Assembly: GCA_902760345.1 (NCBI GenBank)
Contig: CACWFY010000024.1
Span: 1 to 39,483, forward strand
Source of the DNA: an uncultured Bacteroidales bacterium
Lineage (GTDB): Bacteria; Bacteroidota; Bacteroidia; Bacteroidales; Bacteroidaceae
Direction: 5' to 3'
Length of the DNA: 39,483 nt
Below are positions 10,909 to 39,042 of the stretch, piece after piece. The position numbers were made by a program, and so were the translations under genes. The first letter of the stretch is position 1. Each line of letters starts with the position of its first letter. Below the pieces are notes generated by a model. That model made no database searches, was not told the origin of the DNA, and saw nothing but the letters and a program-made list of their open reading frames with translations.

Positions 10909-10940
10909 ATTGTATTTTAATAATTATTTATTTATCTTTG
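10909..10940 (+). promoter_or_regulatory. Promoter of the MACPF/adhesin operon
   Basis: The -33 position reads ATTG (10909-10912), followed by a 20-bp spacer and a consensus TATCTTTG -7 box (10933-10940). The predicted leader is about 80 nt, A/T-rich and without a Shine-Dalgarno, before the ATG at 11028. Confidence 0.75.
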
Positions 10941-11027
10941 TAGCATCATTCCATCGTGAGACCGGAACTTGATTGAATAGTCAAACCTAAAATATATTAA
11001 ATTTAAACAATCTAATAATAAACGATT

Positions 11028-12512
11028 ATGAAGAAAATGACGAAACAGCTCTTTGCAGCTGCAGTGGCTTTAGTAGCCTTCAACGCTTGCTCAGACTCTA
11101 ATTTTGCTGAGTTCAATCCTGGAGTTGGCGAAAACGGCGCATTTGACAATCAGACCATGAATTCCGCCGTGCTGACCAACGCAAATGGTGAACAGATTTC
11201 AAGTGTGTCTGCTGACTTTGGTACTTATTACCTGAACATTAAGACCGATGATGTCTGGTATATCGAGACTCCCAAAAACATGGAGTTCACTCCCACCAGG
11301 ACGTTCGGTAAGGGCAGTGCTCGCATACCAGTAATGATTGGTAACAACTGGGCAGAGGCTCGTCAGTTGTCTTACAAGGTGAACTTTGTCAGCGAAAACG
11401 GTCAGACTGGTGCTAAGCGTCGTGCTCCTGGTGAAAACACGCAGACCGTGACTCAGCAGTCGGCCACCAACCTGGAAGGATTCAAGCAGATCATTAACTC
11501 GAACACCTTTGTTGGTTATGGTTACTATCCTGCCAAGCATGTAAGACCAGAACTGTGCACAGGCGTCCAGATTTTCAAGATGGATGGCAATCCATCATAC
11601 GTTGTCAACAGTCTTGCGCCGCAGAATGATGAATTTTATTTCTACGCCCACAGCGATTCCGTCTTGGATAAAGTGGTTGCTGTCAATGGCCATCCAGGCG
11701 GCAACTTCGGTGCTGTTAAAATGCATTTGGACTTAGATAACGTAAATGTAACGCGCAAAACCAAATTCGAAGTCACCGTCATGCAGAAGTCGATGACTCG
11801 TTCGGTTTACAGCCGTGAGATTCATAACTGGATTACAGTGAAGAATAGCGATGACAACTTCACTGACGGTTTCAAAGAGTGTAAGCAGCGTTTCATTACT
11901 CAACTTGCGGCTGCAGGTACCGATGAAGCCAAGAAGAAAGCAGCTGCAGAATTATTATTCAATGACGTAGGTACACACTTCGTTTATAAAGGCATGTTAG
12001 GCAGTGAACTCGACTACCGACTGGCTGTAGCCAAGAGCAAAGCCGAGAAATCTACCGACGTGAAGGCCGCCCTTGACTTTAAGTGGAAGCAGCAGGTGAA
12101 AGACACCGCCAAGGTTGACTCTGCTCAGTTGGACAGCCTGAAAAAACTGCTCCCCGACAGTGTCAGAAAGAACTTCGTGTTCCATGGAGGTGTGATGGTT
12201 AAGGATTCTACCTTCAGTGCAGCCTCCGCTACCGTTGCACAGGTCAAGGCGCGTGGTGGTGACGTGGAGAGGGTGAGTATCCTGGCCACAGGTGGTACGC
12301 TCAACTGTGCAGACCTGGCTATATGGTTGCTCAGCACTGAACCGGAAAAAGCTACCATGACAGAGATGCTCGTTGAGCCTATTTACCGACTGTTTAAAGA
12401 TTCGGGTGGAACAGCTGAAGAGGCAGCCGCGTACACGTATCTCAAGGACCTGATAGATACGAAATATAATCTCAAAAAGGCACAAGACGGTTTTGGCAAG
12501 CTAGAGGAGTAG
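11028..12512 (+). CDS. MACPF-domain lipoprotein 1 (BACON-like N-terminus)
   Basis: This 494-aa surface lipoprotein candidate has a signal peptide ending in a lipobox with Cys21 (AFNAC), followed by SDSNFAE, whose acidic residues resemble Bacteroidetes surface-export signals. Residues about 60-120 form a BACON-like beta-sandwich (DDVWYIETP through NNWAEAR). The MACPF core follows: GYGYYP (163-168), the signature GTHF (315-318, in FNDVGTHFVYKGMLGSELDY) and the conserved RGGD (409-412). It closes with EPIYRLF. MACPF proteins oligomerise into rings and insert beta-hairpins into membranes. Bacteroidales examples (BSAPs) kill related strains. It is the first gene of the operon, closest to the promoter. 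The target and pore activity are not shown by sequence. Confidence 0.85.
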   Translation: MKKMTKQLFAAAVALVAFNACSDSNFAEFNPGVGENGAFDNQTMNSAVLTNANGEQISSVSADFGTYYLNIKTDDVWYIETPKNMEFTPTRTFGKGSARIPVMIGNNWAEARQLSYKVNFVSENGQTGAKRRAPGENTQTVTQQSATNLEGFKQIINSNTFVGYGYYPAKHVRPELCTGVQIFKMDGNPSYVVNSLAPQNDEFYFYAHSDSVLDKVVAVNGHPGGNFGAVKMHLDLDNVNVTRKTKFEVTVMQKSMTRSVYSREIHNWITVKNSDDNFTDGFKECKQRFITQLAAAGTDEAKKKAAAELLFNDVGTHFVYKGMLGSELDYRLAVAKSKAEKSTDVKAALDFKWKQQVKDTAKVDSAQLDSLKKLLPDSVRKNFVFHGGVMVKDSTFSAASATVAQVKARGGDVERVSILATGGTLNCADLAIWLLSTEPEKATMTEMLVEPIYRLFKDSGGTAEEAAAYTYLKDLIDTKYNLKKAQDGFGKLEE

Positions 12513-12573
12513 CAGCGCTTGAAATCGAATTAAGTTTTTTTACCCGGTTTTGACTGTTAAAGTTATAACAAAT

Positions 12574-13974
12574 ATGAACAGAAACATATCACGCTCAGTA
12601 CTGGTGCTTGTTGCCGCTCTTGCGACAGCATGCTCCGGTAGTGAGGATATGATAGGCAATGAGGGGACTGGCAGCGAGAGCAATGCTCCGTTTTCCATTC
12701 TCGGAACCTCTGGGAGCGACATCGTGAATACGGGCGCCTCCTATGGGGAGTACACAGCCTACATCAACGTGCCGGGCAAGTGGTCTATAGCAACTTCGAA
12801 GGGACTGGCCAACGTGTATCCCTCGTCGGGCGAAGGTCCGACGACGGCTATCGTCCAGGTGGGTGAGAACTGGGGTGCAGCGCGCGAGAACGTGCTGACG
12901 CTCAAGAGCGAAGAGGTTGTCACGCGAGCTGGTGGTGACAACCAGACGAGTCTGTCTATTGTACAGGCGAGCAATCCCTCGCTGGATGCCGTCTCGAAGG
13001 TATTCTCTGCCAACAAAGGCGCCGGCTACAGCTATATGCCTGGTGGCGAATACTGCGACGGCGCCTTGATACAGCTGTTCAACTTGGTCACGCTTGACAG
13101 CATTCAGCGTGCCACGGGCGTCCGCCTGATATCTGACGTCATCTTTCCTGAGACTGTCCAGGAGATTATCACAGCAAACAGTGAGGATGCCATCGTCAAT
13201 AACCTGACCGTCAACGCGTCGGCAGGCTTGAACCTCGGTTTGGTGAAGGGCAAGGGCACTGGTAGCGGCAGCATCAGTGTCGGTGTGGGAACAGGTCATG
13301 AGGAGAAGTCCATCAACAAGTACGCCCTGAAGCGCCAGAAGACCACCCAGTTCATGCGTGAGATTCAGTATATGAACATCATGGCTCTGCTGGAAAAGGC
13401 CACCACGCGCGAAGACTCCATGAAGCTGCTGTCGCCAGGATTCCTCTCCGTACAGGAGACGTTTGCCAAGAATATTGCTGCTGCGAAGGGCAACACCACG
13501 AAGCAGTACGACATCTGCAGCAGGTTCCTGGACGAGATTGGTCCGTGCTTCATCAGCAAGGCGGCGATGGGTGCTGTGCTTGACTACCAGATCAGCGTCG
13601 ACAGCACGTTGCTACGCGATACGCTGGGTGTCAAGGTGGCGCTTGAAGCGAAATTCCAGACCCAAATCAAGTGTAGGGAAGTTGGCGGAAAAGGCTCGTT
13701 CAACATTGGTGTTTCCAAGGAAGGCAAAGAACTGATGTCAAAGACGACGGCCACTGTCAAGGTACGTGGCGGCGATGTCAGCCAGGTGTGTATCCTGGTG
13801 ACTGGCGGCGAGCTGTACGACAGTGATGTCACGGCGTGGCAGAACAGTTGTCTTCCTGAACGTGCCGCCATGGTTGATATGACGCTCATCCCCATCTATA
13901 CGCTTATAGCCGATGCCTATGCCCGTGAAGTGTTGATGAGTTACTTTGATGTGAAGTTAAGAGATAACAGATAA
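12574..13974 (+). CDS. MACPF-domain lipoprotein 2 (degenerate signature)
   Basis: This 466-aa paralogue has its lipobox Cys at residue 20 (LATAC), followed by SGSEDMIGNE. A BACON-like domain (about 58-112, GKWSIATSKG to ENWGAAR) precedes a MACPF region with GYSYMP (151-156), RGGD (398-401) and LIPIYTLI. The signature GTHF is replaced by GPCF (323-326, in LDEIGPCFISKAAMGAVLDY). Alternating small and hydrophobic residues at about 211-240 are what a membrane-inserting hairpin would look like. The start is ATG 12574, which gives a clean signal peptide; an upstream TTG in frame at 12550 is less likely. It follows gene 1 after 61 nt. Its last codons lie in a heptamer array. It is a component of the same predicted complex. 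Confidence 0.82.
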   Translation: MNRNISRSVLVLVAALATACSGSEDMIGNEGTGSESNAPFSILGTSGSDIVNTGASYGEYTAYINVPGKWSIATSKGLANVYPSSGEGPTTAIVQVGENWGAARENVLTLKSEEVVTRAGGDNQTSLSIVQASNPSLDAVSKVFSANKGAGYSYMPGGEYCDGALIQLFNLVTLDSIQRATGVRLISDVIFPETVQEIITANSEDAIVNNLTVNASAGLNLGLVKGKGTGSGSISVGVGTGHEEKSINKYALKRQKTTQFMREIQYMNIMALLEKATTREDSMKLLSPGFLSVQETFAKNIAAAKGNTTKQYDICSRFLDEIGPCFISKAAMGAVLDYQISVDSTLLRDTLGVKVALEAKFQTQIKCREVGGKGSFNIGVSKEGKELMSKTTATVKVRGGDVSQVCILVTGGELYDSDVTAWQNSCLPERAAMVDMTLIPIYTLIADAYAREVLMSYFDVKLRDNR

Positions 13975-13986
13975 GAGATACAGAGA
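13959..13986 (+). repeat. Heptamer array over the gene 2 stop codon
   Basis: Units AAGAGAT, AACAGAT, AAGAGAT and ACAGAGA span the last codons and the stop of MACPF gene 2 and end 3 nt before the ATG of gene 3. Confidence 0.7.
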
Positions 13987-13989
13987 CAA

Positions 13990-15084
13990 ATGACGAACCG
14001 AATATATTGTTTCCTCCTTCTTGCCGCTGTGCTGGGCATGGCCTCCTGTAGCAAGGATGATGCTTCAGGCGACAGCTTTGCTGCTCGTCGCGGAGGCGGC
14101 GAAGAAGTACAGCCGACGGGGGGTACGTATGTGTCCCGACTGCTGGCCCCTCCAGGCTATGAGCGTGGCGTGGGCTATTGCTATGCCACGGGGGCTGACT
14201 ATCTGGAAGGAGTGACTTTCAACATCTTCAACCTCAACTATCTGGACTCCATCCAGTACGTCAAGGGTCTGAACTTCATCAGCGACGATTATACTCCGTT
14301 CAGTGAGGAACAGGTCATCACTGGTGAGACACGCAGTGCCGTTTCCAAGCAATTGGCCGTTTCAGCAAGCCTTGGCGCCAACTTCATCGTTGCCGACATC
14401 AAGGTGTCAGGCACTTTCTCCAAGGGAAGTGTACAGGAGAGCCAGTCGGTGTTTGCCATGAAGCGCACCAAGCGTGTGGCATACAGCCGTGACTTGCAGT
14501 ACAAGAACGTCATCCAGTACTATAAGGAAACAGGCGACAGCATGGTTTTCGCCCCAGGTTTTTTTGCCGACTGGAAGAAGCTTGAAGGCAATAGCACCAA
14601 TCAGGCTGACGTGAGCAACAAGATGGTGCACGACTTCATCAACAAGTGGGGTAGAGGTTTCGTGGCACGGTCCTTCATGGGCGGTGTGCTGGAATATACC
14701 ATGCAGATTGACAAGTCGGTGCTCAGCGAGAACATGAGTGCTGAGATGGCCATCAATGCCAGCGTGGGACTCATTGTGGGTGTTGACGTGTCATCAAGTG
14801 TGCAGACTCAGCAGTTCCAGACAGTTTCCCGTGACCGCTACAGCATGGACATCCACGTTCGTGGTGGTGATGTGCAGGCAGTGACGGAGGTATTGGCAGG
14901 TACGAGCACCTCGCCAAAGGGTATCCAGGAATGGATGGCGAGCGTCAACTTCCCGCCCGTTCCTGACAGCGAGCAGCTGAAGACATGTGCCATGACCGAT
15001 GTGAAGATAGCGTCTATTGCCTATCTCTTTACGGGAAAGGTGCAAGACAGGGTGAATTATATTTTGCGTACGTACGCACAATAA
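13990..15084 (+). CDS. MACPF-domain lipoprotein 3 (minimal, degenerate signature)
   Basis: At 364 aa this is the shortest of the set, a lipoprotein (Cys20 in GMASC, then SKDDASGD) with little beyond the MACPF core and no BACON domain. Shared landmarks are GYCYATG (62-68), FNIFNLNYLDSIQ, RGGD (291-294) and a terminal IAYLF. The signature position reads GRGF (221-224) instead of GTHF. Two amphipathic stretches flank it at about 121-144 (KQLAVSASLGANFIVADIKV) and 251-271 (AEMAINASVGLIVGVDVSSS), the expected positions of the membrane hairpins. It begins 15 nt after gene 2 and is followed 16 nt later by gene 4. The degenerate signature could mark an assembly partner rather than a self-sufficient pore former. 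Confidence 0.8.
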   Translation: MTNRIYCFLLLAAVLGMASCSKDDASGDSFAARRGGGEEVQPTGGTYVSRLLAPPGYERGVGYCYATGADYLEGVTFNIFNLNYLDSIQYVKGLNFISDDYTPFSEEQVITGETRSAVSKQLAVSASLGANFIVADIKVSGTFSKGSVQESQSVFAMKRTKRVAYSRDLQYKNVIQYYKETGDSMVFAPGFFADWKKLEGNSTNQADVSNKMVHDFINKWGRGFVARSFMGGVLEYTMQIDKSVLSENMSAEMAINASVGLIVGVDVSSSVQTQQFQTVSRDRYSMDIHVRGGDVQAVTEVLAGTSTSPKGIQEWMASVNFPPVPDSEQLKTCAMTDVKIASIAYLFTGKVQDRVNYILRTYAQ

Positions 15085-15100
15085 TGAATTGAGAATTAGG

Positions 15101-16309
15101 ATGAAGTACACCTTATTATATTTATATATAGCAGTAGGCATGTTGGCGCTGGTATCGTGTAGCAGTGACGACACGGACGTTGCTCCAAAAGCACCTCAGA
15201 CTGTCGACGCCTCCGAAGGCGAAAACAATGGCAACGACGAGCCCGCCTCATGGCTTACCAGAGCCTATACTGCCGAAGAGATACAGTCTGTTGAAGATGC
15301 CGTTAGTGCCATCCGTGGTGCCGGCTACACCTACAGGGATAATCAGTCATACTGTGTCGGTACCGATATGGAGGTTTTTAACATGCGTAAGCTGCGCGAT
15401 ATGGAAAAGAAATACAATACCTCTTATATCGTGGACGACTACAATCCTGCCAACGAACAGAAGTTCTTCTACAGCGAGAGTGTCAAGGAGCTGAATAAAA
15501 AGTTGTCGCTGGACATCGGTATTGGCTTCGATGCAGGCGTGTTCGCCATGGATTTGGAGGTGGGCTTCAACAAGAAAAATTTCTCAACGACGAAGAACTA
15601 TTATACGTTGATGCGCATGAAGCAGAGCTATTTCACGCGCGAACTCAACTACCTGAATCTTCGTGAACAGGTTGCCAACGCCATTGCCGCTTCGTCGCTG
15701 AAAAGCACCTATCCCAGCGTTGATGCTGACTCACTGGCCAAGGTGGTGCCATTCTTCCGTGAGGCCTACGCTCCAGGTTTTTCCGACGTGATGCAGAGGT
15801 TTGTCCGTAAGATCCATGGCGCTACATCGGCATTTGCTGCCAGCGGTCTCTGTCGTGAGTTCATTGATGAGGTGGGCTCCGGTTTCGTAACCCGCTCCGT
15901 CTTAGGCTGTTCGCTCGACTACTACAACACAACGCGCATGGACTCTGTGTCTAATTCGCTCGACGTGTCTGTGGCTTTGGAGTTGACCGTTCGAATCAAA
16001 TTTATCTCCCTCAGTGCCGGTTTGAGTACCGAATACCATGAGGCCGCCGAAAAGTGTAGCCGCAATTCAGAGAGTCATATCACCGCCCGTGGTGGTGACG
16101 TGTCGAAGGTAACGGCATTCACCACCGGTCAGCAGGCAACGATAGACCCGACAACGCTGAAGACGTGGCAGCAGACGGTGACACCACAGGATGCAGCACT
16201 CATAGACATCCGTCTGGTGCCTATTTATGAGGTCATATACGATGCCAAGACGCGAACCATCCTAAAGAACTATATGGAGAAATCATTACGTAACTTTGAA
16301 GATGAGTGA
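15101..16309 (+). CDS. MACPF-domain lipoprotein 4 (degenerate signature)
   Basis: This 402-aa lipoprotein (Cys20 in ALVSC, then SSDDTDV) has the paralogue landmarks GYTYRD (75-80), MEVFNMRKLRDMEKKYN, RGGD (330-333) and LVPIYEVI. The MACPF signature is GSGF (259-262). Clear alternating-hydrophobicity strands occur at about 134-156 (KLSLDIGIGFDAGVFAMDLE) and 287-309 (LDVSVALELTVRIKFISLSA), good candidates for membrane-inserting hairpins. The start is ATG 15101, which gives a canonical signal peptide; an in-frame TTG at 15089 is rejected. It lacks a BACON domain and resembles gene 3 most in layout. It is an operon member with 16 nt before it and 40 nt after. Confidence 0.8.
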   Translation: MKYTLLYLYIAVGMLALVSCSSDDTDVAPKAPQTVDASEGENNGNDEPASWLTRAYTAEEIQSVEDAVSAIRGAGYTYRDNQSYCVGTDMEVFNMRKLRDMEKKYNTSYIVDDYNPANEQKFFYSESVKELNKKLSLDIGIGFDAGVFAMDLEVGFNKKNFSTTKNYYTLMRMKQSYFTRELNYLNLREQVANAIAASSLKSTYPSVDADSLAKVVPFFREAYAPGFSDVMQRFVRKIHGATSAFAASGLCREFIDEVGSGFVTRSVLGCSLDYYNTTRMDSVSNSLDVSVALELTVRIKFISLSAGLSTEYHEAAEKCSRNSESHITARGGDVSKVTAFTTGQQATIDPTTLKTWQQTVTPQDAALIDIRLVPIYEVIYDAKTRTILKNYMEKSLRNFEDE

Positions 16310-16349
16310 GATGAATACATACAAATATATCTGTCGCGGAGGAAATAGC

Positions 16350-18569
16350 ATGAGCATGGCTATGAAGGGCGTGCTGGGCATAGCAGTCTTTCTGGCTTCT
16401 TGGTGCTTTGTTTCCTGCTCCGACGACATGCTTACAGACGAAGAGGTGACCACCAACGCCCCTCTGTCCAGAAGAGCTTTTTCAGACGATCAGATCAAGG
16501 TGCAGCGCTTGGGGTATGCCTACAATGCCGCTGGCAATGTGATGGACGACAGTAGTTTCACTGCCAGCCCCATCATCAATATGGACCGTCTCAAGGCTGC
16601 CGAGGCAAAGTATGGACTCATCATCAGCTCAGAGCGTCGCCACTATACGTCCCTGGACATCTTCAGCGGTAACACGCTTCAGGAAGTGGGCCATTCGGAG
16701 ACGAAGTACACCGTTGACGACATTGGCGTGGCCGGTTGTGGTGTTTACTTCCGCAAAAACAGTATTTTCTCCGAAACCAGGTTTACAAGTAGCTATAAGG
16801 CGCACATGTTCGTCAAGCACATCATGGCGACCATGACTATTGATGTCGGCATGCTGCACTGTATGGCGCTGGATAGTCTGGACAAGGCTGACAACGTGCT
16901 CGAGACAGACTTTCGCCAGGCCGTCAAGGAACTGGTTCAGGTGGGAGAGGCGAGTGTCGATACCACCAAAGCGACCGAGTTCTCCGAGAAGTACGGCACG
17001 CACCTCGTGGTGTCTTCCAATCTCGGTGGCATGATAGAGTTGCAGATGCAAATCAACCGTGACTCCTGCGTAGATAAGGAATACACTACTCAGCAAGTGA
17101 TTGAGGACGTCGTAGGCCAGCAGGTTGTCAAGACCAGCAAGCCTATGAACCTCAAAGAAACGGTGCGCAAAAATACCGTTGAGTATGAAGGAGCAATCAA
17201 TGTCAAGGGCGGTACGCAAGAACACTGCGACGCGCTTCACAGGACTTTCGACCATAAGGATGCCGTTGCTAAGAAAATTGGCGATGCCGACTATTCCAGT
17301 TGGGCCAGCAATATCAGCATCGAGCCCGATTCTTATAATGCCGCCTTCGTCAGCGGACGTTTCCTGCCCTATTATCAGCTATTCGAAGACTCCATCACCC
17401 GCAAGGTCTTGCGCAAAGTCTATGAGTTGTACCTGAAGAAAGAGGCCCCGACAAAGGAACAATACGAGCCTGTCTACGGCGTCATGCCGGTGGAGGGCAA
17501 TTACGGTCCCGACGTGCGGGTAGCGACGGTAGACAACAACAAGGCATGCATCATCTGTGAGGAATACGTTCCCTCCATCCGAAGCGACAAACCCTGCGTG
17601 GTAGCTTATCCGCTCATCCGTGGCAAGGATGATAAATCACGTCCGTTCTTTTATACCGGTCTGTTCGTAGGCGACGAGAGCCATCGTCCCGGACGTGTCA
17701 TCTGGCAGGGTAGCGCATCGACGTACATCCCCTCCGACAGCATCTTCGCTGAGAGCCCAAGTACTGCTATCAGTGAACTCTTCGACCCAAACACCCATGC
17801 CCTGAAGAACGTGTATATCTATTGGAATGCCGTTCACGCACTTCCTTGTCCCACGAAAAGGGATGAAGAGCCTAAGAACTATACAACCACCGTATTCAGT
17901 ATAAATCCGGCATCCCTTGCCGAGTCGACGACTTTTGCCAAGGTGGCCAGCACCTTCTGGTCGACACGTCCGGTGGTGCCGAAAACCGACAGCCTTAAGG
18001 CTTACTGGGATGGTGACAGCAGATTCCCGGAATTTGCAAAGATAAGAAATAAGACGAATGACGGGGTGTTGTATAAGACCGATAACTACTGCTACAGTCT
18101 GTTGGATGGCGGCGACAACATCAAACGTGCCACACAGCCTGACGATGACCCCGACGCCACCAAAAGGTGGATTGAAGCTGTGAGCCGGTCGATGAAGGCC
18201 ATTGGTCTGAATGACTATCTGCCCAGTGTTGAGCAGTCAAAGAGTATCACCCGCATGTTGGGCAACCGCATGAGCCTGTTCTACAACCGCTTATCCAATG
18301 GTCGTAATATGCTCGGACTGGACTGGCCCACCGGTTACTGGGTCATCTCCGACCCCTCACAGCAGACGATGGCTATCGTTCCTGAACAGAACGATGGCCA
18401 GGGAATACCGATAGTAACCAACGACGAAGGGGAGGCGCGCATCCTGCGTCTGAGTGGTTCGGGAACCGACCTGCTGCTCGATTATCCGGAGTATGTCAAG
18501 GCATTTAACTACTCTGACCAGGTGTTCTTCAAGTTCTTCCCGATTTTTATTACGATAGACAATTTTTGA
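16350..18569 (+). CDS. Long MACPF-domain lipoprotein 5 with unknown C-terminal extension
   Basis: This 739-aa lipoprotein (Cys23 in CFVSC, then SDDMLTDEE) has a canonical MACPF signature YGTHLV (215-220) with GYAY (55-58) and a KGGT motif (286-289) replacing RGGD. The MACPF part ends near residue 370. About 370 residues of unrecognised sequence follow, including VAYPLIRGKDD and YIPSDS. In other MACPF toxins the C-terminal domain binds the target, so this may be the receptor-binding region. The start at 16350 is chosen because GGAGGAAA lies just upstream and it gives a normal signal peptide. The frame is open to 16296, overlapping gene 4, and an ATG at 16311 is an alternative. The stop overlaps nothing; gene 6 starts 5 nt later. 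Confidence 0.82.
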   Translation: MSMAMKGVLGIAVFLASWCFVSCSDDMLTDEEVTTNAPLSRRAFSDDQIKVQRLGYAYNAAGNVMDDSSFTASPIINMDRLKAAEAKYGLIISSERRHYTSLDIFSGNTLQEVGHSETKYTVDDIGVAGCGVYFRKNSIFSETRFTSSYKAHMFVKHIMATMTIDVGMLHCMALDSLDKADNVLETDFRQAVKELVQVGEASVDTTKATEFSEKYGTHLVVSSNLGGMIELQMQINRDSCVDKEYTTQQVIEDVVGQQVVKTSKPMNLKETVRKNTVEYEGAINVKGGTQEHCDALHRTFDHKDAVAKKIGDADYSSWASNISIEPDSYNAAFVSGRFLPYYQLFEDSITRKVLRKVYELYLKKEAPTKEQYEPVYGVMPVEGNYGPDVRVATVDNNKACIICEEYVPSIRSDKPCVVAYPLIRGKDDKSRPFFYTGLFVGDESHRPGRVIWQGSASTYIPSDSIFAESPSTAISELFDPNTHALKNVYIYWNAVHALPCPTKRDEEPKNYTTTVFSINPASLAESTTFAKVASTFWSTRPVVPKTDSLKAYWDGDSRFPEFAKIRNKTNDGVLYKTDNYCYSLLDGGDNIKRATQPDDDPDATKRWIEAVSRSMKAIGLNDYLPSVEQSKSITRMLGNRMSLFYNRLSNGRNMLGLDWPTGYWVISDPSQQTMAIVPEQNDGQGIPIVTNDEGEARILRLSGSGTDLLLDYPEYVKAFNYSDQVFFKFFPIFITIDNF

Positions 18570-18574
18570 GCGTT

Positions 18575-20521
18575 ATGAATAAGAATAAGGCAATACTATA
18601 CTTCTCGCTATTCGCCCTCGGGGCCTCTATGGTTACCTCCTGTACACGTGAGGACGACCTTCAAACGGTTATGGAGGAATACGACCCTGAGAATGCTAAC
18701 GGCACCTACTCGGAAGCCCACTGGAGGCGAGTGCATGCGGCCCAGCGCCAGGCATATATCGGTGATTTGTATCGCAGCTATGGTGTGGGTTATGGCTATA
18801 ACGGCACCGGAAAGTACAGCGACTACGACGAGGTTCGCGACCGTGTCATCGACCTGAGTTATATCCAGCAGTATGATGCACAGCACGGCTCCGCAACTAT
18901 CATCGATGATGTCTCGCCGTCATCTTTCCATCATGTCTATAGCGGCACCGATGCTATCACCATCTGCGAGAAGCTTACCCGCCAGTCGTCGGTGAAGACG
19001 GACCTGCTCCTCTTCCAGTCTGAGGTCAAGACCACCTTCAACAAGACCGATATGACGAGCAACGAGTATGCCTTCTGCACCATTTACGATGGTCTGACTG
19101 TGGCTTCACGCCATCTGGAGACTTATGACCTCTATCATATCGCCCGCGAGCACCCCGAAGCACTCTCTCCGGGATTCACCCGCTACGTAAGTATGGCGTC
19201 AAAGGCTATTAATAAGGGCAACAACACGGAGGCCATGCGCATCATTGAGAATATGTTCCAGACCTATGGCACCCATATTATCTACCATGCCAAGTTGGGT
19301 GGCAAGCTGAAGTTCAGCACCACGATGAACCGACATGTGGTAGACTCTCGCAACACGGTTGACGAGCAAGCCAGCGCATCGTTCCTCTACAGCATCGGAA
19401 CCACCGAAGGCACCGAGAAGCAAAACTGGGTGGTGAACACACAGGAAGACCGTGAGACCCACATCGAGGCTCTCGGCGGCAATAGTGCCTACGCTCTGGA
19501 GCTGGCGGGTATGCATGAGAGTAGTAACATGGCGAAGAAGAACGAGGTGTTGGACAAGTGGTTCAAGTCGATCAAGTTCGACCCCAATGCCGATAAGGAC
19601 GAGAATAACGTGGAGCTTATCGACATCAAGGTAGCCCCCATCTCCGATCTTATTTCTGACCCTCAGGTGGCTGCCCTCTACGCCCTGATGACAGGTAAGC
19701 AAATCGCTTATGAGACCAGTGTCATGCCGCGCGCAAGGAGTCAGGTATATGCCAAGATTCCTACTTCTACGCTCAGAATCGCTGACCGTTCCACCACCAA
19801 TCAGGTTGTTGTGAATAACGAGATTATCGGCGAGGTGCTCAACGAGTATGTTCACAATGTGGAATATACGGTGTTCTATCCAACCTTAGGTGGCAAGCTG
19901 GCTCGTGAGGGTCTTGGCCGCCGCTGCAGCGACGACAGTCTGTTCACCATCACGTGGCAGTATCTCAAAGGCGCAGAGGACCAGGCAAAGGCTTACGTCA
20001 CGCCGCTTGTACGAGGCAACTATGATGACAACATCTATTATAACAACGGTGACATCGACATTGCTCCCTCCGATAGCATCAAGGCTTACACTTCCAACAT
20101 CGCTGTCAATAGGGGTACCCTTTATATGTGGAACGACACCTGCGTGGCCAACATGAAGATTGGTCCCTACTACCTGCATCAGGGAGTGATGGCTAATACC
20201 AGCTCAGATAAAACGGCCATGAACACCATTCGTACCTTACTCAAGGATGTTCCAGTGGGCTATGATGTGGCCAACACGACGAAGCTCAACAGCATTATAC
20301 ATTTTATGTATAAGTCTGGTGAGGTTTTTGGTCCAAATCGCATCAATCAGAACGACGTTCCGTCCTTCTTCAGTTATAAGCGATTTATCATGTTAGATGA
20401 CACTAAGAACCAATATGGTATTTTCAAACTTGAGCCTGGCAAGGACTATGTCACTCCGATGGAGTTAGAGACCATCGGTCAGGCGTTGCTCATACGCAAA
20501 CAGGATTTCGAATTTAAGTAG
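18575..20521 (+). CDS. Long MACPF-domain lipoprotein 6 with unknown C-terminal extension
   Basis: This 648-aa lipoprotein (Cys23 in MVTSC, then TREDDLQ) has an intact signature YGTHII (231-236, in MFQTYGTHIIYHAKLGGKLK), GYGYNGTG (72-79) and a GGN motif (301-303) at the RGGD position, followed by VAPISDLI. The final 270 residues (about 380-648) are an unrecognised extension. They share with gene 5 a recurrent SDSI pattern and a similar YVTPLVRGNYDD/YPLIRGKDD segment, so the two tails may be homologous. The start at ATG 18575 gives a proper signal peptide; an upstream in-frame TTG overlaps the preceding stop. It is the last of the six MACPF genes. The secreted CxxC/GLUG proteins follow. Confidence 0.82.
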   Translation: MNKNKAILYFSLFALGASMVTSCTREDDLQTVMEEYDPENANGTYSEAHWRRVHAAQRQAYIGDLYRSYGVGYGYNGTGKYSDYDEVRDRVIDLSYIQQYDAQHGSATIIDDVSPSSFHHVYSGTDAITICEKLTRQSSVKTDLLLFQSEVKTTFNKTDMTSNEYAFCTIYDGLTVASRHLETYDLYHIAREHPEALSPGFTRYVSMASKAINKGNNTEAMRIIENMFQTYGTHIIYHAKLGGKLKFSTTMNRHVVDSRNTVDEQASASFLYSIGTTEGTEKQNWVVNTQEDRETHIEALGGNSAYALELAGMHESSNMAKKNEVLDKWFKSIKFDPNADKDENNVELIDIKVAPISDLISDPQVAALYALMTGKQIAYETSVMPRARSQVYAKIPTSTLRIADRSTTNQVVVNNEIIGEVLNEYVHNVEYTVFYPTLGGKLAREGLGRRCSDDSLFTITWQYLKGAEDQAKAYVTPLVRGNYDDNIYYNNGDIDIAPSDSIKAYTSNIAVNRGTLYMWNDTCVANMKIGPYYLHQGVMANTSSDKTAMNTIRTLLKDVPVGYDVANTTKLNSIIHFMYKSGEVFGPNRINQNDVPSFFSYKRFIMLDDTKNQYGIFKLEPGKDYVTPMELETIGQALLIRKQDFEFK

Positions 20522-20523
20522 AT

Positions 20524-20568
20524 GAAACTTGGAACTTGGAACTTGAAACATGAAACTAGAAATATGAA
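20524..20568 (+). repeat. Heptamer array running into a start codon
   Basis: Six 7-mers (GAAACTT, GGAACTT, GGAACTT, GAAACAT, GAAACTA, GAAATAT) fill the whole gap between MACPF gene 6 and the next ATG (20564), which lies within the last unit. Copy-number change would alter the leader length. Confidence 0.85.
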
Positions 20569-22330
20569 ACAAATACTATTCACGATTCTCTTTTCACTAT
20601 CTACTGCCGCAGCCATGGCACAGGGCTTTGTATCGGAGATCAAAGTCGTTGCTGTTCAGGACAAGGACAGTCTTGCCCCCCAGGCCGTAGGCTATAGTGG
20701 CACAGGTAACTACGATTTGGATTTCCGTAAGGGACGTGGCGGTGGCTACGTGTTTACCGTCTTCAAGAACACTACAGACCCGAATGGATACATCACCGAC
20801 GTGAAAGTCCTGAAGAGGGATGACTATGGTCATGCTTTTAATGAGGGTGGAAAGGCTTACATGCCGGCACCCTTCTATCAGGCAAAATCACGTAAGGATG
20901 TTGATTACCGCGGTGGACTTAACGGCCGTAACTATGAAATTTATGGTGGAGCATACCCTAAACAGGACCATGTCTATTTTTCCCGTAGCGGCAACAAGGA
21001 TTTTAACCAGCGAGTGCTCCAGTCGGCTGAAGTCAAGACCAGCAAGCCAACGGCGGGTAAGAACCAGACCATTAGCGGTGGTCATGCCGGTGGTGGACGC
21101 TACTTCCTCTTTACCTGGCATACGCACAAATCCCAATATCGTAAATTGCCTTCTGAGAGCATTGAAGACCACGAGCACTATTGCAATCTCGACGGATGCA
21201 AACTCACGGTGCAAGAGCCCCATCGTTTCCCGCAGATATACGGCAATGATTTATGGATGCAGTTCACCGAGAAAGAAAAAAAGTATGATCGCGATTCGGT
21301 GCACTACAAGAAATGTATGGATTGTGGACAAGTGGTCGTAGAGAAGCATAATTTCTCGACCTGTTCCTCTGACTGGAAAGAACACAACCAACGCTGTCTG
21401 GTGTGTGACTATGTCATTACGGCGGAGCACAAAGATTTTGGTAAGCAGAAGCTGCCCGTTGACGAATATCATCACCTGATATATTGTCCTTGCGGATTCC
21501 TCCACAAACTACCCCATTCGCTGGAACGTCGCAGAGAAGTGAGAACAGACTGCGAACACACCCTTGTGAAATATACCTGCGGCCAGTGCTTCCATGAGGT
21601 GTATTTCGAGGAGGCAGGCATAGGCCATGACTTCGACGCTAACGGTTTTTGTACCCGCAAGGGCTGTCTGCATCCCTACCAGCGTCCTGCCGTGGAGTAT
21701 CCCAATGGCAGTAGCGACAGTACCTATGTCGTCAAGTCCTTCGGCAACCTCTACTGGATGGCCGACTATGTCAACAACCGCCGTCCCAAGACTCATTTCC
21801 GGCTTGACAACGATCTGATAGCCGACAGTCTGATGCGATTGCCGTGGTATCCTATCGGCGATACTGACAGCACGGCATTCCAGGGGACTTTCGACGGTAA
21901 AGGTTACGCCATCACCATGCTCCAGACGGAAGAACCCGTAGCTGGCTGCAGCCCTCGTGGACTCTTCGGAACCATTGGCAACGAGGGCGTCGTGAAGAAT
22001 GTCGGCATTGCAGCATGCAATATGCGCGGCTGGGACAATATCGGAGCCATAGCCGGTGTCAACAACGGAACCATTGACAGTTGCCACGTGGTGTTCTCTA
22101 TGATGGAAACGATAGGTACGGGCAAAAACCTCGGCGGTATATGTGGACTTAACAAGGGCACTATCTCCAAGTGTATTACAGAAGGCAACGTATGGGTTGG
22201 CGGTGTGCGCGACTATGCCGGTGGCATCTGTGGAACCAACGAAGGAGGAACGCTGTCGGGCAATACTACTGCAGCCATCTGTGGCAGCGGGTCTGATGCC
22301 ACGTTGCCGGAAGCCGCATCCGAACAGTAA
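20564..22330 (+). CDS. Secreted CxxC/GLUG protein with possible MABP-like N-terminal domain
   Basis: This 588-aa protein has a cleavable signal peptide (to about AMAQ, residue 21). Residues 22-170 contain YDLDFRKGRGGGYVFTVFKN and YITDVKVLKRD. This pattern resembles the DLNKG/ITDI layout of MABP-type beta-prism domains, which are known partners of some MACPF toxins (tentative). The middle (about 207-368) has seven Cys pairs or near-pairs (C251/C254, C278/C281, C339/C342, C363/C368 among them) like tandem zinc-ribbon modules, ending in HDFDANGFCTRKGC. The C-terminal 120 residues carry GLUG repeats (GGICGLNKGTISKC, GGICGTNEGG). Unlike its three downstream neighbours it has no C-terminal sorting tail. 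Start ATG 20564 is chosen over 20522, which lies in the heptamer array. Confidence 0.75.
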   Translation: MKQILFTILFSLSTAAAMAQGFVSEIKVVAVQDKDSLAPQAVGYSGTGNYDLDFRKGRGGGYVFTVFKNTTDPNGYITDVKVLKRDDYGHAFNEGGKAYMPAPFYQAKSRKDVDYRGGLNGRNYEIYGGAYPKQDHVYFSRSGNKDFNQRVLQSAEVKTSKPTAGKNQTISGGHAGGGRYFLFTWHTHKSQYRKLPSESIEDHEHYCNLDGCKLTVQEPHRFPQIYGNDLWMQFTEKEKKYDRDSVHYKKCMDCGQVVVEKHNFSTCSSDWKEHNQRCLVCDYVITAEHKDFGKQKLPVDEYHHLIYCPCGFLHKLPHSLERRREVRTDCEHTLVKYTCGQCFHEVYFEEAGIGHDFDANGFCTRKGCLHPYQRPAVEYPNGSSDSTYVVKSFGNLYWMADYVNNRRPKTHFRLDNDLIADSLMRLPWYPIGDTDSTAFQGTFDGKGYAITMLQTEEPVAGCSPRGLFGTIGNEGVVKNVGIAACNMRGWDNIGAIAGVNNGTIDSCHVVFSMMETIGTGKNLGGICGLNKGTISKCITEGNVWVGGVRDYAGGICGTNEGGTLSGNTTAAICGSGSDATLPEAASEQ

Positions 22331-22365
22331 TTAAGAGTTAAGAATTAAGAGTTAAGATTTGAAAG
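22331..22365 (+). repeat. Heptamer array (TTAAGAG-like, 5 copies) in operon gap
   Basis: TTAAGAG, TTAAGAA, TTAAGAG, TTAAGAT and TTGAAAG start immediately after the preceding stop codon and end 2 nt before the next ATG (22368), so the gap consists of the array. Confidence 0.85.
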
Positions 22366-22367
22366 AT

Positions 22368-25154: not shown

Positions 25155-25178
25155 GAAAATGAGATATTGAGAAATTGG
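25147..25178 (+). repeat. Octamer array in operon gap
   Basis: GAAATTGA, GAAAATGA, GATATTGA and GAAATTGG cover the stop codon of the 928-aa protein and end 7 nt before the next ATG (25186). Confidence 0.65.
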
Positions 25179-25185
25179 CATAAAG

Positions 25186-28100: not shown

Positions 28101-30492
28101 CTACGTCTTTACTGCCAGCATCAAGAGCAAGTACATAGGCGGCAATGACATCAAGTTCGCCGAGACGACCAACGTCACAGTGGAGAGCCTCTCGACAGAG
28201 ACGGCTAATGCCGGCACCGTGGTCACCGCATCCGTGAGCGTTTCAGGCAACAACCACCTGGAGAGCATTACCATCGCGGCACCTGACGGTAGCGACGCCT
28301 TCCAGTGCCCGTTCACCGACAATACTGAGAATGTCTATACCTTCTCGTTCACGATGCCCGCTCATGAAGTGCTCATCACTCCGCAGGTCAAGGAGGGCAG
28401 ATTCATCTATACCGCTACCCAGTTTGAGAAAATCAATGACAGGGAAGGTATCTTCTATCTGGCAAGAGATATTGACCTGAACAATTGGGGAAAGAATAGG
28501 GCCATCAGTCTGAAGGGTACCTTCCATGGTGGCGGTCACACCATCCGATACCACGAAGAGGGTACCTCCCTGGGGTTGTTCAGCAGAATCCGTGAGGGTG
28601 CACTGCTCGAGGGACTGCGTGTTGTCGGCATCGTAGAGTCCAGTGAGAACTGCGCCGGTATCGCCTACGAGAACTGGGGCACCATCCGTGACTGTCATTT
28701 CTGTGGCCAAATTACGAGGTTAGAGGGCAACCGTCCCAGAAAGAACCGTATTGCAGCGCTTGTCTATAGTAATGCAGGCAGCTCCAGCCTCGTTGACCAC
28801 TGTTCTGCCACGGGCATACTGAGCAACTCTGCTAATCAGACGGTTGTTAACAACTGTCCGCTGTACGCTGTCAGCGATAAAGCGAAGATGAAAGACTGCG
28901 TATGGATTGGTGCTGCTCTGACGGCAGAGCAATACCAGCAGCTGCTGCAGAGTGCTCAGGCCATGCTCAACGACTATCCAGTCTGTGCTCAGGGCATTCT
29001 CGACAGGATTGATGCCCGCGTCATCACAGGTAGCCATAGCCAGACGGTGCCCTATGGGCAGACGCTGGCCGAACTCACCATCACCGATGGCGAGCCGTTT
29101 GTCTGTACCAGTGACGTGCAGGTCAATCGCGTTGTCTATAAGCGTAAAGCCACGAAGAACCTCGAGGAGTGGGTACTGCCGTTTGCATTCACTCAGATTG
29201 CCGGCGATGGCCAGTTCACCTACCATGAGGCGGTAGAAAATAACAACATGCCAGACATTGGATCTGCCCATCCGTTGACGCTTAGCAATACGCCGCAGTC
29301 CGTCAACTATACGTTCAACCAGCCCTGGCTGGTCAGCAATGGCGAAGACGGTGAGGAAAGGACATACGTGCTGAGCAACGCCGACGGCAGCCCCATCACC
29401 ATCAAGGCAACCAACGACCATCGCGTCGCACGCTATAAGTCCATTATGGATATAGGCAGTTTCTTTGCCGCCTACGACACCATTCCTGCCAAGACTGTCA
29501 GCGATGAGCTCATGTACGCATGGAATGGCACTCAGCAGGAGTTTGTCCTTTCCAACGGCTCCACCTCCATCCTGCCCAACCGCTTCTACCTGCAGTTCTA
29601 CAACACGACTTCCAAGAAGTTCGTCAAGTATTCGCAAACCCAGTGGGCCAAGATGGAAAATGCTACCCCCAGCACACAAGCCAAGGCATCGCGTCGCCTC
29701 GCTGCGGCAGTAGCCGACGGCTGGCAGCCCATCTTCCTCGATCCGCGTCAGCCACAGAGCATCACGGCTCGTATGCTCGACTACTACGATGTGGCTTATC
29801 TCGCTGACATCCGTGGCGAGGTGCTCGACGAAGAGGATGACGAACCATTGTCTGTCGTATCGCTTGTCTATATTATGGCCGACGATCGTATGGATCTGCC
29901 GGCAGCACTCCCCTTGTTGGTACGTGCCAAGCGTTCCGATGCTGAGCCGCTGGTCGATGCCAAGACCGGTGCAGAGCTTGAGGAGTTGCTCATGAAGATG
30001 ATGGAGGAGGAAGATGAAACCGACGAGGGCTATGATGAGGGCTATGACGAGGACTATGATGACGAGGATGCCCTCGACATACCACACTACTGGTGTGCCT
30101 CGTTCGACAACCGTCTCGACATCTGGCAGCTGCCGGCTCCTGAGCGCTATGCTGATTTGGCAGAATACGGCTGCATGATGTTCAACGACAACTCCTACGA
30201 CCAGTCGTTTGTCTATGCTACTGCCAACGACACCCGTAGCACGTCACCCATGAGCTATTGCATCACGCTGCTCAATGCCAAGACCTACGAACTCCTTCCC
30301 CTCTTAGGCGACCGTGTATGCGTAGAGTTCCTCGTGCCGGCAGAAACAACGGGAGTTAACGACGCTACGCGTCTAAATGATAAAGGACAAATGATAAATG
30401 ATAAAGTCATCTATAACCTCAGCGGACAGCGTGTCAGCAAGCCCACAAAGGGGCTCTACATCGTGAATGGTCGCAAGATGATTAAAAAATAA
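25186..30492 (+). CDS. Large secreted InlB-like/GLUG repeat protein with sorting tail (1768 aa)
   Basis: The signal peptide ends near CVWAE (residue 21). An InlB-B-like domain (about 25-130) has the hallmark ending SFTMPAADVEVWAYF. This kind of domain returns at about 668-745 (SFVMPGAYITLKGEF) and 998-1075 (SFTMPAHEVLITP). Each of the later two is followed by a segment starting like TAQQVDSI/TATQFEKI and then GLUG repeats (about 785-910 and 1080-1220). The unit InlB-like plus GLUG is therefore duplicated. Near residues 1605-1632 lies an acidic stretch with tandem EGYDEGYDEDYDDE. The C-terminus (YNLSGQRV to GLYIVNGRKMIKK) looks like a type IX sorting tail and is preceded by a linker encoded by heptamers. 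The likely role is adhesin or scaffold. A long antisense frame here is a codon-bias shadow. Confidence 0.8.
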   Translation: MEKKRFLLAVLLLLTVCVWAEEPKKYSLMLSPSNPMVNGSIDIPDQQAAVGSRVTVTCKPDQGYGLSRGVYYAPRNANGGLSESHLADNTSHDPDDRANESQTFSFTMPAADVEVWAYFVPLRELRIHQSKNAKSKLVPTYTSKEVKNDYTVVKNIPKKPVYLKIEPETGYELVDVEKTNIAPGYYERMNDSIIKIFMPTEDVIMHVTPIFGQNHYEVKLPNEMEHIQATVTNLKPKAREEVDLILVTDDDYIPARVTITGCKQSWMAGKPERLKDGKWKTVYRFKVDFQNVDITYGVDQVHDFIVTDTQNSKRVKTYIPEMIPGYAGVARSGQQIPMVFMMPESFSVNYNTQGASETPLVYHNALKNSFADQGMDGWHDTTVDDGKRLPVMVFTDSVGNKYWRTSGVNSMSQTVDLTKFSFPPSAKQNGRLNVAAIASINPCNARSAKVSIEATGNGNTETLVVADPSGKEKDWITELKVGTVSATATEMKLQVEATADDENKRSYEGPMFDDLCLLLPTDGQSIKNEDVLIFKMGDNDITIDYTPSGSEGTVSVVKTDHANLTLLNTATGEEGESVKAMTDDVILITGKADDGYAVYELSCAAPDEESNARASHRAYVAWDDDEPEILEPDSVNVAANKTFFHYVKSDDDDIAITPTVDKQQVMLENYYGGKIAVDNESAKKGETVVVTVTPKAGCQLKQIRTIPANAAQFTEVQVDKNTGAGTYSFVMPGAYITLKGEFIVPITTAQQVDSISNQCGTFRLDNDLDLGNLWDNKKITLIGDFDGNGHRITYGGNTSLFQTVSPKGSVRHLYVNANVKGIVIGEASDDYMGGICMKNNGVIEDCVVSGSVKNERPASFVGGVAGLNGANKKGGTIAYCHVLCDGLEAAGTSFGVARQEKHAVIRDNVFSGMFVSGDRLSYMICNDQDSVTIERNYYVPSAGNSRAVLCKGVSAATSAILADALKNVPKTCYVFTASIKSKYIGGNDIKFAETTNVTVESLSTETANAGTVVTASVSVSGNNHLESITIAAPDGSDAFQCPFTDNTENVYTFSFTMPAHEVLITPQVKEGRFIYTATQFEKINDREGIFYLARDIDLNNWGKNRAISLKGTFHGGGHTIRYHEEGTSLGLFSRIREGALLEGLRVVGIVESSENCAGIAYENWGTIRDCHFCGQITRLEGNRPRKNRIAALVYSNAGSSSLVDHCSATGILSNSANQTVVNNCPLYAVSDKAKMKDCVWIGAALTAEQYQQLLQSAQAMLNDYPVCAQGILDRIDARVITGSHSQTVPYGQTLAELTITDGEPFVCTSDVQVNRVVYKRKATKNLEEWVLPFAFTQIAGDGQFTYHEAVENNNMPDIGSAHPLTLSNTPQSVNYTFNQPWLVSNGEDGEERTYVLSNADGSPITIKATNDHRVARYKSIMDIGSFFAAYDTIPAKTVSDELMYAWNGTQQEFVLSNGSTSILPNRFYLQFYNTTSKKFVKYSQTQWAKMENATPSTQAKASRRLAAAVADGWQPIFLDPRQPQSITARMLDYYDVAYLADIRGEVLDEEDDEPLSVVSLVYIMADDRMDLPAALPLLVRAKRSDAEPLVDAKTGAELEELLMKMMEEEDETDEGYDEGYDEDYDDEDALDIPHYWCASFDNRLDIWQLPAPERYADLAEYGCMMFNDNSYDQSFVYATANDTRSTSPMSYCITLLNAKTYELLPLLGDRVCVEFLVPAETTGVNDATRLNDKGQMINDKVIYNLSGQRVSKPTKGLYIVNGRKMIKK
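30375..30409 (+). repeat. Heptamer array encoding the linker before a sorting tail
   Basis: AAATGAT, AAAGGAC, AAATGAT, AAATGAT and AAAGTCA encode NDKGQMINDK directly upstream of the C-terminal YNLSGQRV tail of the 1768-aa protein. Confidence 0.85.
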
Positions 30493-30522
30493 CAAAATAG
30501 CCCAATTGGACAATCAATTGTT

Positions 30523-30550
30523 AAATAGTAAATGGTCAAATTGTAAATTA
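30523..30550 (+). repeat. AT-rich leader repeat before the giant adhesin
   Basis: This 28-bp segment, beginning AAATAGTAAATGGTCAAAT, differs at one base from 788-815. It ends 2 nt before the ATG at 30553. It is part of a heptamer-like array starting near 30515. Confidence 0.8.
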
Positions 30551-30552
30551 CA

Positions 30553-38589
<8,037 letters not shown>

Positions 38590-38595
38590 GAGACA

Positions 38596-38790
38596 ATGAA
38601 GAAGAAAATATATCAACGCCCCATCATGCAGGAACTGCTCATCAGCAGAGCAGTTTCCCTGCTGTCAGGTTCTAACCCCTATTTAAAAGAGGGGGAAACA
38701 GGAAACGGTGGCCCCATAGACACCAACAATCCGGTGGGCAGCGGCCTGAGCCGCGAGTTCGACGACTTCGACGACGACTTCGACTTCTAA
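38596..38790 (+). CDS. Small protein (64 aa) with acidic Phe/Asp tail, end of MACPF operon
   Basis: The peptide starts MKKKIYQRPIMQELLI, has a short hydrophobic stretch ending LLSGS, a polar Gly/Asn/Pro middle and the tail FDDFDDDFDF. It begins 6 nt after the giant adhesin and precedes the operon terminator, so it is very likely co-transcribed and translated. Short proteins with an MKKxYxxPxM start and an LLSGS-like element are, from memory, common near secreted-protein genes in Prevotella, without a known role. It has no conventional signal peptide. Options include a secretion-associated peptide, a precursor peptide cut after the LLSGS region, or a regulator. None is supported further by sequence. 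Confidence 0.7.
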   Translation: MKKKIYQRPIMQELLISRAVSLLSGSNPYLKEGETGNGGPIDTNNPVGSGLSREFDDFDDDFDF

Positions 38791-38820
38791 AGAAATTAGT
38801 AAATTTCACTTTCTAACTAC

Positions 38821-38867
38821 CCGCCGAGACTCCCAGTGTGAGGGGTCCCGGCGGAATCTGTTTTGTT
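38821..38867 (+). terminator. Strong intrinsic terminator of the MACPF/adhesin operon
   Basis: CCGCCG (38821-38826) pairs with CGGCGG (38849-38854). After one mismatch the stem continues as GACTCC with GGGGTC, giving about 12 pairs around a short loop, followed by a T-rich stretch (TCTGTTTTGTT). It lies 31 nt after the last stop codon. Confidence 0.8.
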
Positions 38868-39042
38868 AATGTACACACGACGTTGTGGTCAGTGAGGTGC
38901 AGGTTCTTGATGTGCTTCTGCACCTCGAACTTGTCCTCCGACTCCGCTCCTCGGCTCGACAGGCCTGCCTTGAAGCAGCCGATGCCGTCCAGTTGTCTTG
39001 CTGGAGGTAGTACTCCATCGTCAGATTGGTGTTAACTGCCAT
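38867..39042 (-). pseudogene. Remnant of an HU-like DNA-binding protein gene
   Basis: From an ATG at 39042 (minus strand) the first frame reads MAVNTNLTMEYYLQQ and then becomes meaningless. From about 38997 another frame reads LDGIGCFKAGLSSRGAESED and continues to about 38867 (VQKHIKNLHLTDHNVV). The latter resembles the C-terminal DNA-binding strand region of Bacteroidetes HU-like (HU-HIG) proteins. Start and end are thus out of frame and too close together for an intact protein of 120-160 aa. An internal deletion is the simplest explanation. A consensus promoter remains upstream. The family assignment is from motif resemblance only. Confidence 0.45.

Follow-up and report, generated by a model that had tools for sequence, protein, structure and literature searches.

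We analyzed a window of 39,483 nucleotides from contig CACWFY010000024.1 of an uncultured Bacteroidales bacterium (assembly GCA_902760345.1), a gut bacterium of the Prevotella group, and found in it one row of eleven plus-strand open reading frames (11028-38790) that encodes six lipoproteins with a MACPF domain (M1 to M6), four secreted proteins (S7 to S10) and a protein of 64 aa. Conservation of the row in related species suggests that its proteins cooperate as one multi-part pore machine. We give a probability of about one half to the reading that this operon makes a multi-component, surface-anchored MACPF pore former, in which subunits without a C-terminal domain (CTD) would form the wall and CTD-bearing subunits would do the targeting, helped by the giant secreted proteins; joint assembly, pore formation, subunit roles, S-protein export and target are what we infer. 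A hetero-oligomeric surface MACPF machine, analogous to complement, had been proposed in an initial annotation made from the sequence alone. With the domain in all six proteins and the row kept together with its S genes, it is still the most economical reading, but the idea of a bacterial complement analogue had already been published (PMC11169675; this source, PMC12853789 and PMC5830445 are cited from excerpts). The genes of the row are:

11028..12512, plus strand: M1, MACPF lipoprotein without a CTD, probably with a BACON-like N-terminal domain (MACPF 29.5 bits)
12574..13974, plus strand: M2, MACPF lipoprotein with a BACON-like N-terminal domain, without a CTD (MACPF 35.7 bits)
13990..15084, plus strand: M3, the shortest MACPF lipoprotein, without a CTD (MACPF 39.5 bits)
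15101..16309, plus strand: M4, MACPF lipoprotein without a CTD (MACPF 35.5 bits)
16302..18569, plus strand: M5, MACPF lipoprotein with a C-terminal region of ~370 aa, C type (MACPF 52.3 bits)
18575..20521, plus strand: M6, MACPF lipoprotein with a C-terminal region of ~280 aa, nearest the B type by profile score (MACPF 54.1 bits)
20564..22330, plus strand: S7, secreted, 602 aa, CxxC/H-rich and GLUG-like repeats, no tail like those of the type IX secretion system (T9SS) (by eye; no Pfam match)
22368..25154, plus strand: S8, secreted, 931 aa, T9SS-like C-terminal tail (TIGR04183 17.8 bits, below the cut-off of 23; tail kept in orthologues)
25186..30492, plus strand: S9, giant secreted protein, 1768 aa, InlB-type B repeat, T9SS-like tail (Flg_new_2 36.9 bits)
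30553..38589, plus strand: S10, giant secreted protein, 2678 aa, GLUG and Listeria-Bacteroides repeats, Gly-rich stretch, T9SS-like tail (Flg_new 41.1 bits, Glug 23 bits)
38596..38790, plus strand: small gene of 64 aa (no Pfam match at E ≤ 1)

All six M proteins scored above the gathering cut-off of the Pfam MACPF profile (PF01823; 29.5 to 54.1 bits, cut-off 21.5 bits) and carry the expected motifs and lipoprotein signals, upholding the six consecutive MACPF lipoprotein genes (11028-20521) of the initial annotation. M1 to M4 end soon after the MACPF domain, and M5 and M6 extend into C-terminal regions without a Pfam match; save for a sub-threshold match in M3, no other Pfam domain was found in the six at E ≤ 1. 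The N-terminal domain of M1 was assigned from its BLAST alignment with M2 over residues 1-459. The motifs GYxY and RGGD/KGGT/LGGN occur in all six proteins, and the signature position reads, from M1 to M6, GTHF, GPCF, GRGF, GSGF, GTHL and GTHI, with GTH kept in M1, M5 and M6 only. By eye, each of the six translations has a signal peptide and a lipoprotein cysteine followed by D/E residues, M1 being the weakest case; the cysteine with D/E also recurs in many orthologues (the regular expression missed or misplaced it in some rows). The D/E residues found here after the lipid cysteine fit the surface signal named in the excerpts of PMC12853789.

Because a comparison of the M2 sequence with solved structures gave nothing (0 of 177635 sequences at E ≤ 1), we turned to fold comparison. 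The structure models of M2 and M6 both show the MACPF fold, as the structure-prediction check suggested in the initial annotation called for, and match MACPF pore formers; both models resemble complement C6, C8 and C9 and also match 3kk7, the structure of the Bacteroidales MACPF protein Bt_3439.

Our genus survey covered 398 genomes (G numbers; fetched loci have L numbers), of which 59 gave a MACPF match, and MACPF-bearing stretches were examined from all 59, from 44 first and then from the other 15. The Pfam profile misses some subunits (genome scans reported 4-5 of the window's six), and the MACPF counts are therefore lower bounds. The operon was found in 20 of the 398 genomes (20 of the 59), the window's included: G000, G007, G040, G107, G121, G123, G155, G229, G238, G243, G259, G260, G289, G298, G331, G334, G367, G400, G424 and G435. 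In the window's own genome, which is 85% complete, no other MACPF locus was found. All six M genes stand in the same order in 19 of the 20 genomes; the exception is G107, whose 3.2-kb contig spans M4 with the end of M3 and part of M5. M1 of G260 is cut off by the start of its contig. S7 and S8 follow the M genes in 19 of 19 loci, and S9 and S10 follow wherever the contig continues except in G007, the contig ending first in G123, G260, G400 and G424 (M3 of G243 and S7 of G007 were located by tblastn). The co-occurrence across genomes that had been proposed as a check is thus found, S genes included. Median pairwise identities were 55% for M1, 75% for M2, 77% for M3 (18 orthologues), 73% for M4, 64% for M5, 72% for M6, 62% for S7 and 48-52% for S8-S10; for these values, as for the distance correlations and the trees and tests of the allele classes below, only proteins >40% identical to the window's and 80-120% of its length were taken.

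These data bear on a rival reading, which we consider unlikely: an arsenal in which six independent BSAP-like toxins share an operon and each builds a homo-oligomeric ring against a target of its own. BSAPs, the Bacteroidales surface MACPF toxins, are treated as single-protein toxins in the excerpts of PMC12853789, the M paralogues are just 19-28% identical in BLAST, with M5 aligning to none of the others at E ≤ 1e-3 and linked to them by profiles, and single MACPF genes do occur in the genus (e.g., L033 and L034). Against such an arsenal, however, the six genes are kept jointly in 19 of 20 loci, and every M1-M6 orthologue seen in the stretches examined from the 59 MACPF-bearing genomes belonged to such a row; the 15 genomes examined last held only distant MACPF proteins with ≤ 32% identity to M1-M6. 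M1-M4 also lack the C-terminal domain, to which BSAP-1 owes its receptor, though 9% of BSAP representatives lack it as well (PMC12853789), and the three-gene loci described below repeat one set of types.

A survey of the order gave a MACPF match in 24 of 393 genomes, and in one genome of another family (G687:C37:17947-21796) three MACPF matches are consecutive, the sole such case besides the window's. Separately, in genome G232 a stretch ~23-34% identical to S7 and S10 lies near a distant MACPF gene (L124:11817-13460, minus strand).

A second locus class in the genus consists of three MACPF genes whose types are similar to those of M1-M6: A, without a CTD (~480-600 aa), B (~600-690 aa) and C (~785-890 aa). 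The three occur together in 15 fetched loci (L027, L028, L029, L031, L071, L072, L074, L076-L081, L083 and L084), among which L027/L028, L071/L072 and L077/L078 are near copies; the A gene of L027, L028, L077 and L078 is a partial profile match, and these four A genes are not in the tree. In the tree of 98 MACPF cores, in which 7 of the 20 six-gene loci were used and 8 other rows (near copies or pieces) omitted, each of M1-M6 formed one clade (support 99-100), M5 joined the C subunits of the triplets (97) and M1-M4 joined the A subunits (89, not starred). In BLAST and profile scores M6 comes closest to the B subunits, with which the tree does not group it firmly. The six-gene operon can be read from these sequences as a set of A, B and C in which A became four genes, a direction that we infer, the tree root being unfixed.

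A lipoprotein with a C13 peptidase domain is present in 13 of the 15 triplet loci; of the two others, L028 is a 7-kb contig and L031 (genome G032) has a C13 match ~17 kb from the MACPF genes. In the three loci scanned with Pfam (L078:10282-12552, L079:12187-14394, and L029:6759-8882 on the minus strand), the lipoprotein combines an ANF-receptor/periplasmic-binding domain with the C13 domain. In complement, proteases trigger assembly. Because a tested pair of CDCL proteins, relatives from Bacteroidota, requires activation by the target cell's surface C11 protease (PMC11169675), a built-in activating protease in the triplet loci is a tempting idea; C13 matches are frequent in the genus, occurring in 135 of 398 genomes. 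For the six-gene operon, a protease as a general component was rejected: the C13 lipoprotein lies directly 5' of M1, together with a small lipoprotein, in two of the 19 other loci (L046:1337-4773 and L048:1640-5057), G123 has one ~15 kb upstream, and the one C13 match in the window's own genome is weak (E 2.6e-4). Some triplet loci also hold large proteins partly similar to S10 (L074:14411-18400, L079:1095-5051 and L081:10201-13020; E 1e-9, 2e-8 and 1e-26) directly before or between the MACPF genes, and a gene of similar size without an S10 match stands in front of those of L084 (394-4314).

The identities of S7-S10 split the six-gene loci into two allele classes. Class I (G000, G243, G259, G289, G298, G334 and G435), defined beforehand from these identities, received support of 100 in the trees of S7 (18 rows), S9 (13 rows), S10 (10 rows, 4 of class I) and S7+S8 (18 rows). 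A single history of all ten genes was rejected in the approximately unbiased (AU) test: M1 rejects the S7-S10 class (p 8e-8; 15 rows, 4 of class I), as do M1-M4 (3e-7) and M1-M6 together (8e-4). M3 rejects it weakly (0.027) and M2 is borderline (0.064); M4 (0.21), M5 (0.24), M6 (0.27) and M2-M4 together (0.089) are compatible with it, and M5 and M6 together recover it (support 86, not starred). As the S7-S10 allele classes are not followed by M1, the operon is, judged by its sequences, a modular mosaic. The CTD-bearing M5 and M6 may, on weak evidence, be closer in history to the S genes than M1 is, and such a shared history would fit a targeting module next to a wall module, though mere proximity on the DNA would have the same effect.

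By eye, S7-S10 start with signal peptides, and their repeats are of kinds seen in surface proteins (Pfam). They had been described as four giant GLUG proteins, which needs trimming: the first has just 602 aa, and GLUG exceeds the Pfam cut-off in one of the four (S10), is sub-threshold in S8 and is visible by eye as GLUG-like repeats in the others. S7 is similar to S9 over 208 columns (E 6e-5), and CxxC and histidine motifs recur in S7 and S8 (window 20522-25154), where they resemble small metal-binding repeats. By eye, the C-terminal tails of S8-S10 are conserved, with patterns such as YDMxGRVV...GLYIYQGxKYLKR or YNLxGQRV...KGxxxxNGRK, and S7 lacks such a tail; the tail is conserved in most S9 orthologues seen to the end and in the orthologues of S10. 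In the profile scan S9 gave no TIGR04183 match, and the S10 tail was not reported by the whole-genome search with the sorting-tail profile, which gave seven matches, four above the cut-off and S8 among the other three. The genome encodes SprA, the T9SS translocon (2564.5 bits). Judged by these tails, export of S8-S10 by the T9SS is likely; the role of dedicated adhesins or scaffolds, also proposed for S7-S10 in the initial annotation, is unproven.

In the pore machine that we favor, the M subunits would be displayed on the cell surface as lipoproteins and come together in a mixed ring or arc, whose amphipathic hairpins would enter the membrane of a competitor or a grazer. M1-M4, having the MACPF domain without a CTD, would be the wall subunits, and M5 and M6, like CDCL-L and C5b-8, would attach to the target and either initiate or complete the assembly; these roles are proposed by analogy with complement and with the CDCLs, whose long subunit does the binding and recruits the short ones. 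S8-S10, and perhaps S7, would leave by the type IX system to act as surface scaffold, targeting aid or self-protection, with the allele class of the S proteins traveling separately from M1. A more specific form, which we advance tentatively, is an obligate six-component MACPF pore in which M1-M4 would form a wall module and M5-M6 with S7-S10 a targeting module that can be exchanged. It would be derived from the subunit types of the three-component class of the genus, whose mostly present receptor-plus-C13-protease lipoprotein could trigger assembly.

The amphipathic hairpins can be looked for in the sequences. The TMH2 stretch has a beta moment (alternating hydrophobicity) of 0.94-1.37 vs 0.55-0.63 in the rest in all six M proteins, in a test that had no outside control and with a stretch that takes in core strands, and the TMH1 moment exceeds the rest in five of six. 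This amphipathic TMH2 speaks against a non-lytic surface assembly, in which MACPF rings or arcs on the bacterium's own surface would serve adhesion, aggregation or uptake with adhesive S proteins, and so do the killing of bacteria by tested MACPF and CDCL relatives from Bacteroidota (PMC12853789, PMC11169675) and the Pfam scan, in which no operon protein matched a SusC/SusD-like family. We doubt such an assembly, though the surface-protein-like repeats of the four secreted proteins would suit it, as would two features that at the same time weigh against a pore machine: no immunity gene was recognized, and the GTH signature is lost in M2, M3 and M4, some of which may therefore not insert. Further points weigh on the same side. 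TMH1 of M5 is short and not amphipathic (0.61 vs 0.62) and may not insert; the beta-moment test had no outside control; the M2 and M6 models are of low to medium confidence (pLDDT 64 and 60); and M6 is not firmly grouped with B in the tree. Distance correlations between the genes are mostly low. G007 has M1-M6, S7 and S8 but neither S9 nor S10 in 40 kb, so the giants are not always kept, and S8 of G289 is split into two frames in its assembly.

For the target of the pore machine, analogy makes bacteria more likely than ciliates or other eukaryotes. A scan with M6 of a named genome collection gave 25 loci, all in Prevotella, Prevotellaceae or Bacteroidales assemblies, many of them the same contigs as the G genomes, so that the two counts are not additive. 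Rumen ciliates graze on bacteria. With 12 of the 25 loci bearing RUG isolate names (rumen-uncultured genomes; PMC5830445) and one coming from red deer, the same machine might be aimed at rumen ciliates, fungi or host cells, but we regard this as improbable, as the tested Bacteroidota relatives kill bacteria (PMC11169675, PMC12853789) and nothing in the sequence names a target.

Three further features flank the genes:

9564..10721, plus strand: gene of an AraC-type regulator, possibly a local one (Pfam HTH_18 34.1 bits, HTH_AraC 30.1 bits, both above the cut-off)
10910..10940, plus strand: promoter-like site TTG-N20-TAtcTTTG, 87 nt 5' of M1
38821..38854, plus strand: terminator-like hairpin (-25.8 kcal/mol, z -2.73 for the fold of 38790-38875, weak U tract)

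The row had been annotated with one strong promoter, one strong terminator and gaps of 5-61 nt. The pattern TTG-N20-TAnnTTTG, which we take to be a Bacteroidales promoter pattern, occurs five times in the window vs 0.25 expected by chance, in a form picked post hoc with the sequence already read; the other four copies are all outside the operon and none is internal to it, in line with a promoter in front. The exact pattern TTTG-N18-23-TAnnTTTG has no match at this site, which the looser TTG-N20 form matches. The terminator fared less well: the hairpin is there, but its U tract is weak and a consensus terminator scan did not list it. The gaps, with ATG starts, run from -8 to 61 nt, confirming the upper value only. 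The 64-aa gene at the end of the row exists as annotated, in one copy in its genome; its product has an acidic end, and it is present in 2 of the 19 relatives' loci (G243 and G259). Five of the 19 other loci (L023, L025, L045, L063, where it is divergent, and L070) have a homologue of the AraC-type regulator within ~4 kb on the 5' side of M1. In L037 (2981-6461), two lipoproteins are encoded 3' of the operon, of which one matches HAD below the threshold and the other has a secretory-lipase match, and in L025 a lipoprotein similar by eye in start and length to one of that L037 stretch lies upstream of M1. Two other identities were rejected: M6 had no match in 72,556 plasmid records, which speaks against a plasmid origin, and PADLOC recognized none of nine operon proteins (S10 and the small gene lay outside the scan) as part of a known anti-phage defense system at E ≤ 0.01.

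Complement supplies most of what is known of mixed MACPF rings, and the two-component CDCL toxins of the same superfamily are the bacterial case. The parts of our operon are of a known kind, Bacteroidales MACPF surface lipoproteins, and two- and three-gene sets of the superfamily have been published (PMC11169675); new here are the conserved six-component set with giant secreted partners, the split into CTD-less and CTD-bearing subunits, the triplet locus class and the allele classes of the S genes. Titles and the starts of abstracts in MACPF literature searches named no six-MACPF operon, which is not proof of absence, and the excerpted BSAP account (PMC12853789) has no mention of multi-MACPF operons.

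Like the BSAPs, which are Bacteroidales surface lipoproteins with MACPF, some with a BACON N-terminal domain and some without a C-terminal domain (PMC12853789), M1-M6 are all lipoproteins with a MACPF domain by profile (6 of 6) and by signals read by eye, with a predicted surface location. Behind the MACPF domain, M5 and M6 continue into regions that match nothing in Pfam, and M1-M4 have no such region. BSAPs are treated there as single-protein toxins, and the operon keeps six together with secreted partners. Bt_3439 (Bth-MACPF, 3kk7) is likewise a Bacteroidales MACPF protein matched by the M2 and M6 models, but its D2/D3 domains (PF20779 and PF20785; PMC12853789) are unmatched in M1-M6 at E ≤ 1. 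With the CDCLs, whose tested pairs act by a complement-like mechanism and which occur as three adjacent genes in 61 genomes, the operon shares adjacent genes for related proteins, pore-forming in the CDCLs and putatively so here, and the lipoprotein signals of the analyzed pairs and triplets (PMC11169675). CDCLs are, however, defined by PF01289, which M1-M6 do not match at E ≤ 1, have two or three components rather than six, and come with no giant secreted partners mentioned in the excerpts (PMC11169675). Like the complement membrane attack complex, the operon supplies several different MACPF proteins, with the M2 and M6 models resembling C6, C8 and C9; unlike it, the proteins are bacterial, predicted to be lipid-anchored and without other Pfam domains above threshold.

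If our reading is true, the operon would be a candidate weapon of rumen Prevotella and would add large secreted partners, which the excerpted accounts of BSAP and CDCL toxins do not mention (PMC12853789, PMC11169675). An obligate six-component pore would have more components than the bacterial pores of the superfamily in these accounts, and one could ask what each extra subunit adds, with genes small enough for one-by-one expression. The conserved six-component set would then imply that bacteria independently reached a subunit complexity comparable to that of complement.

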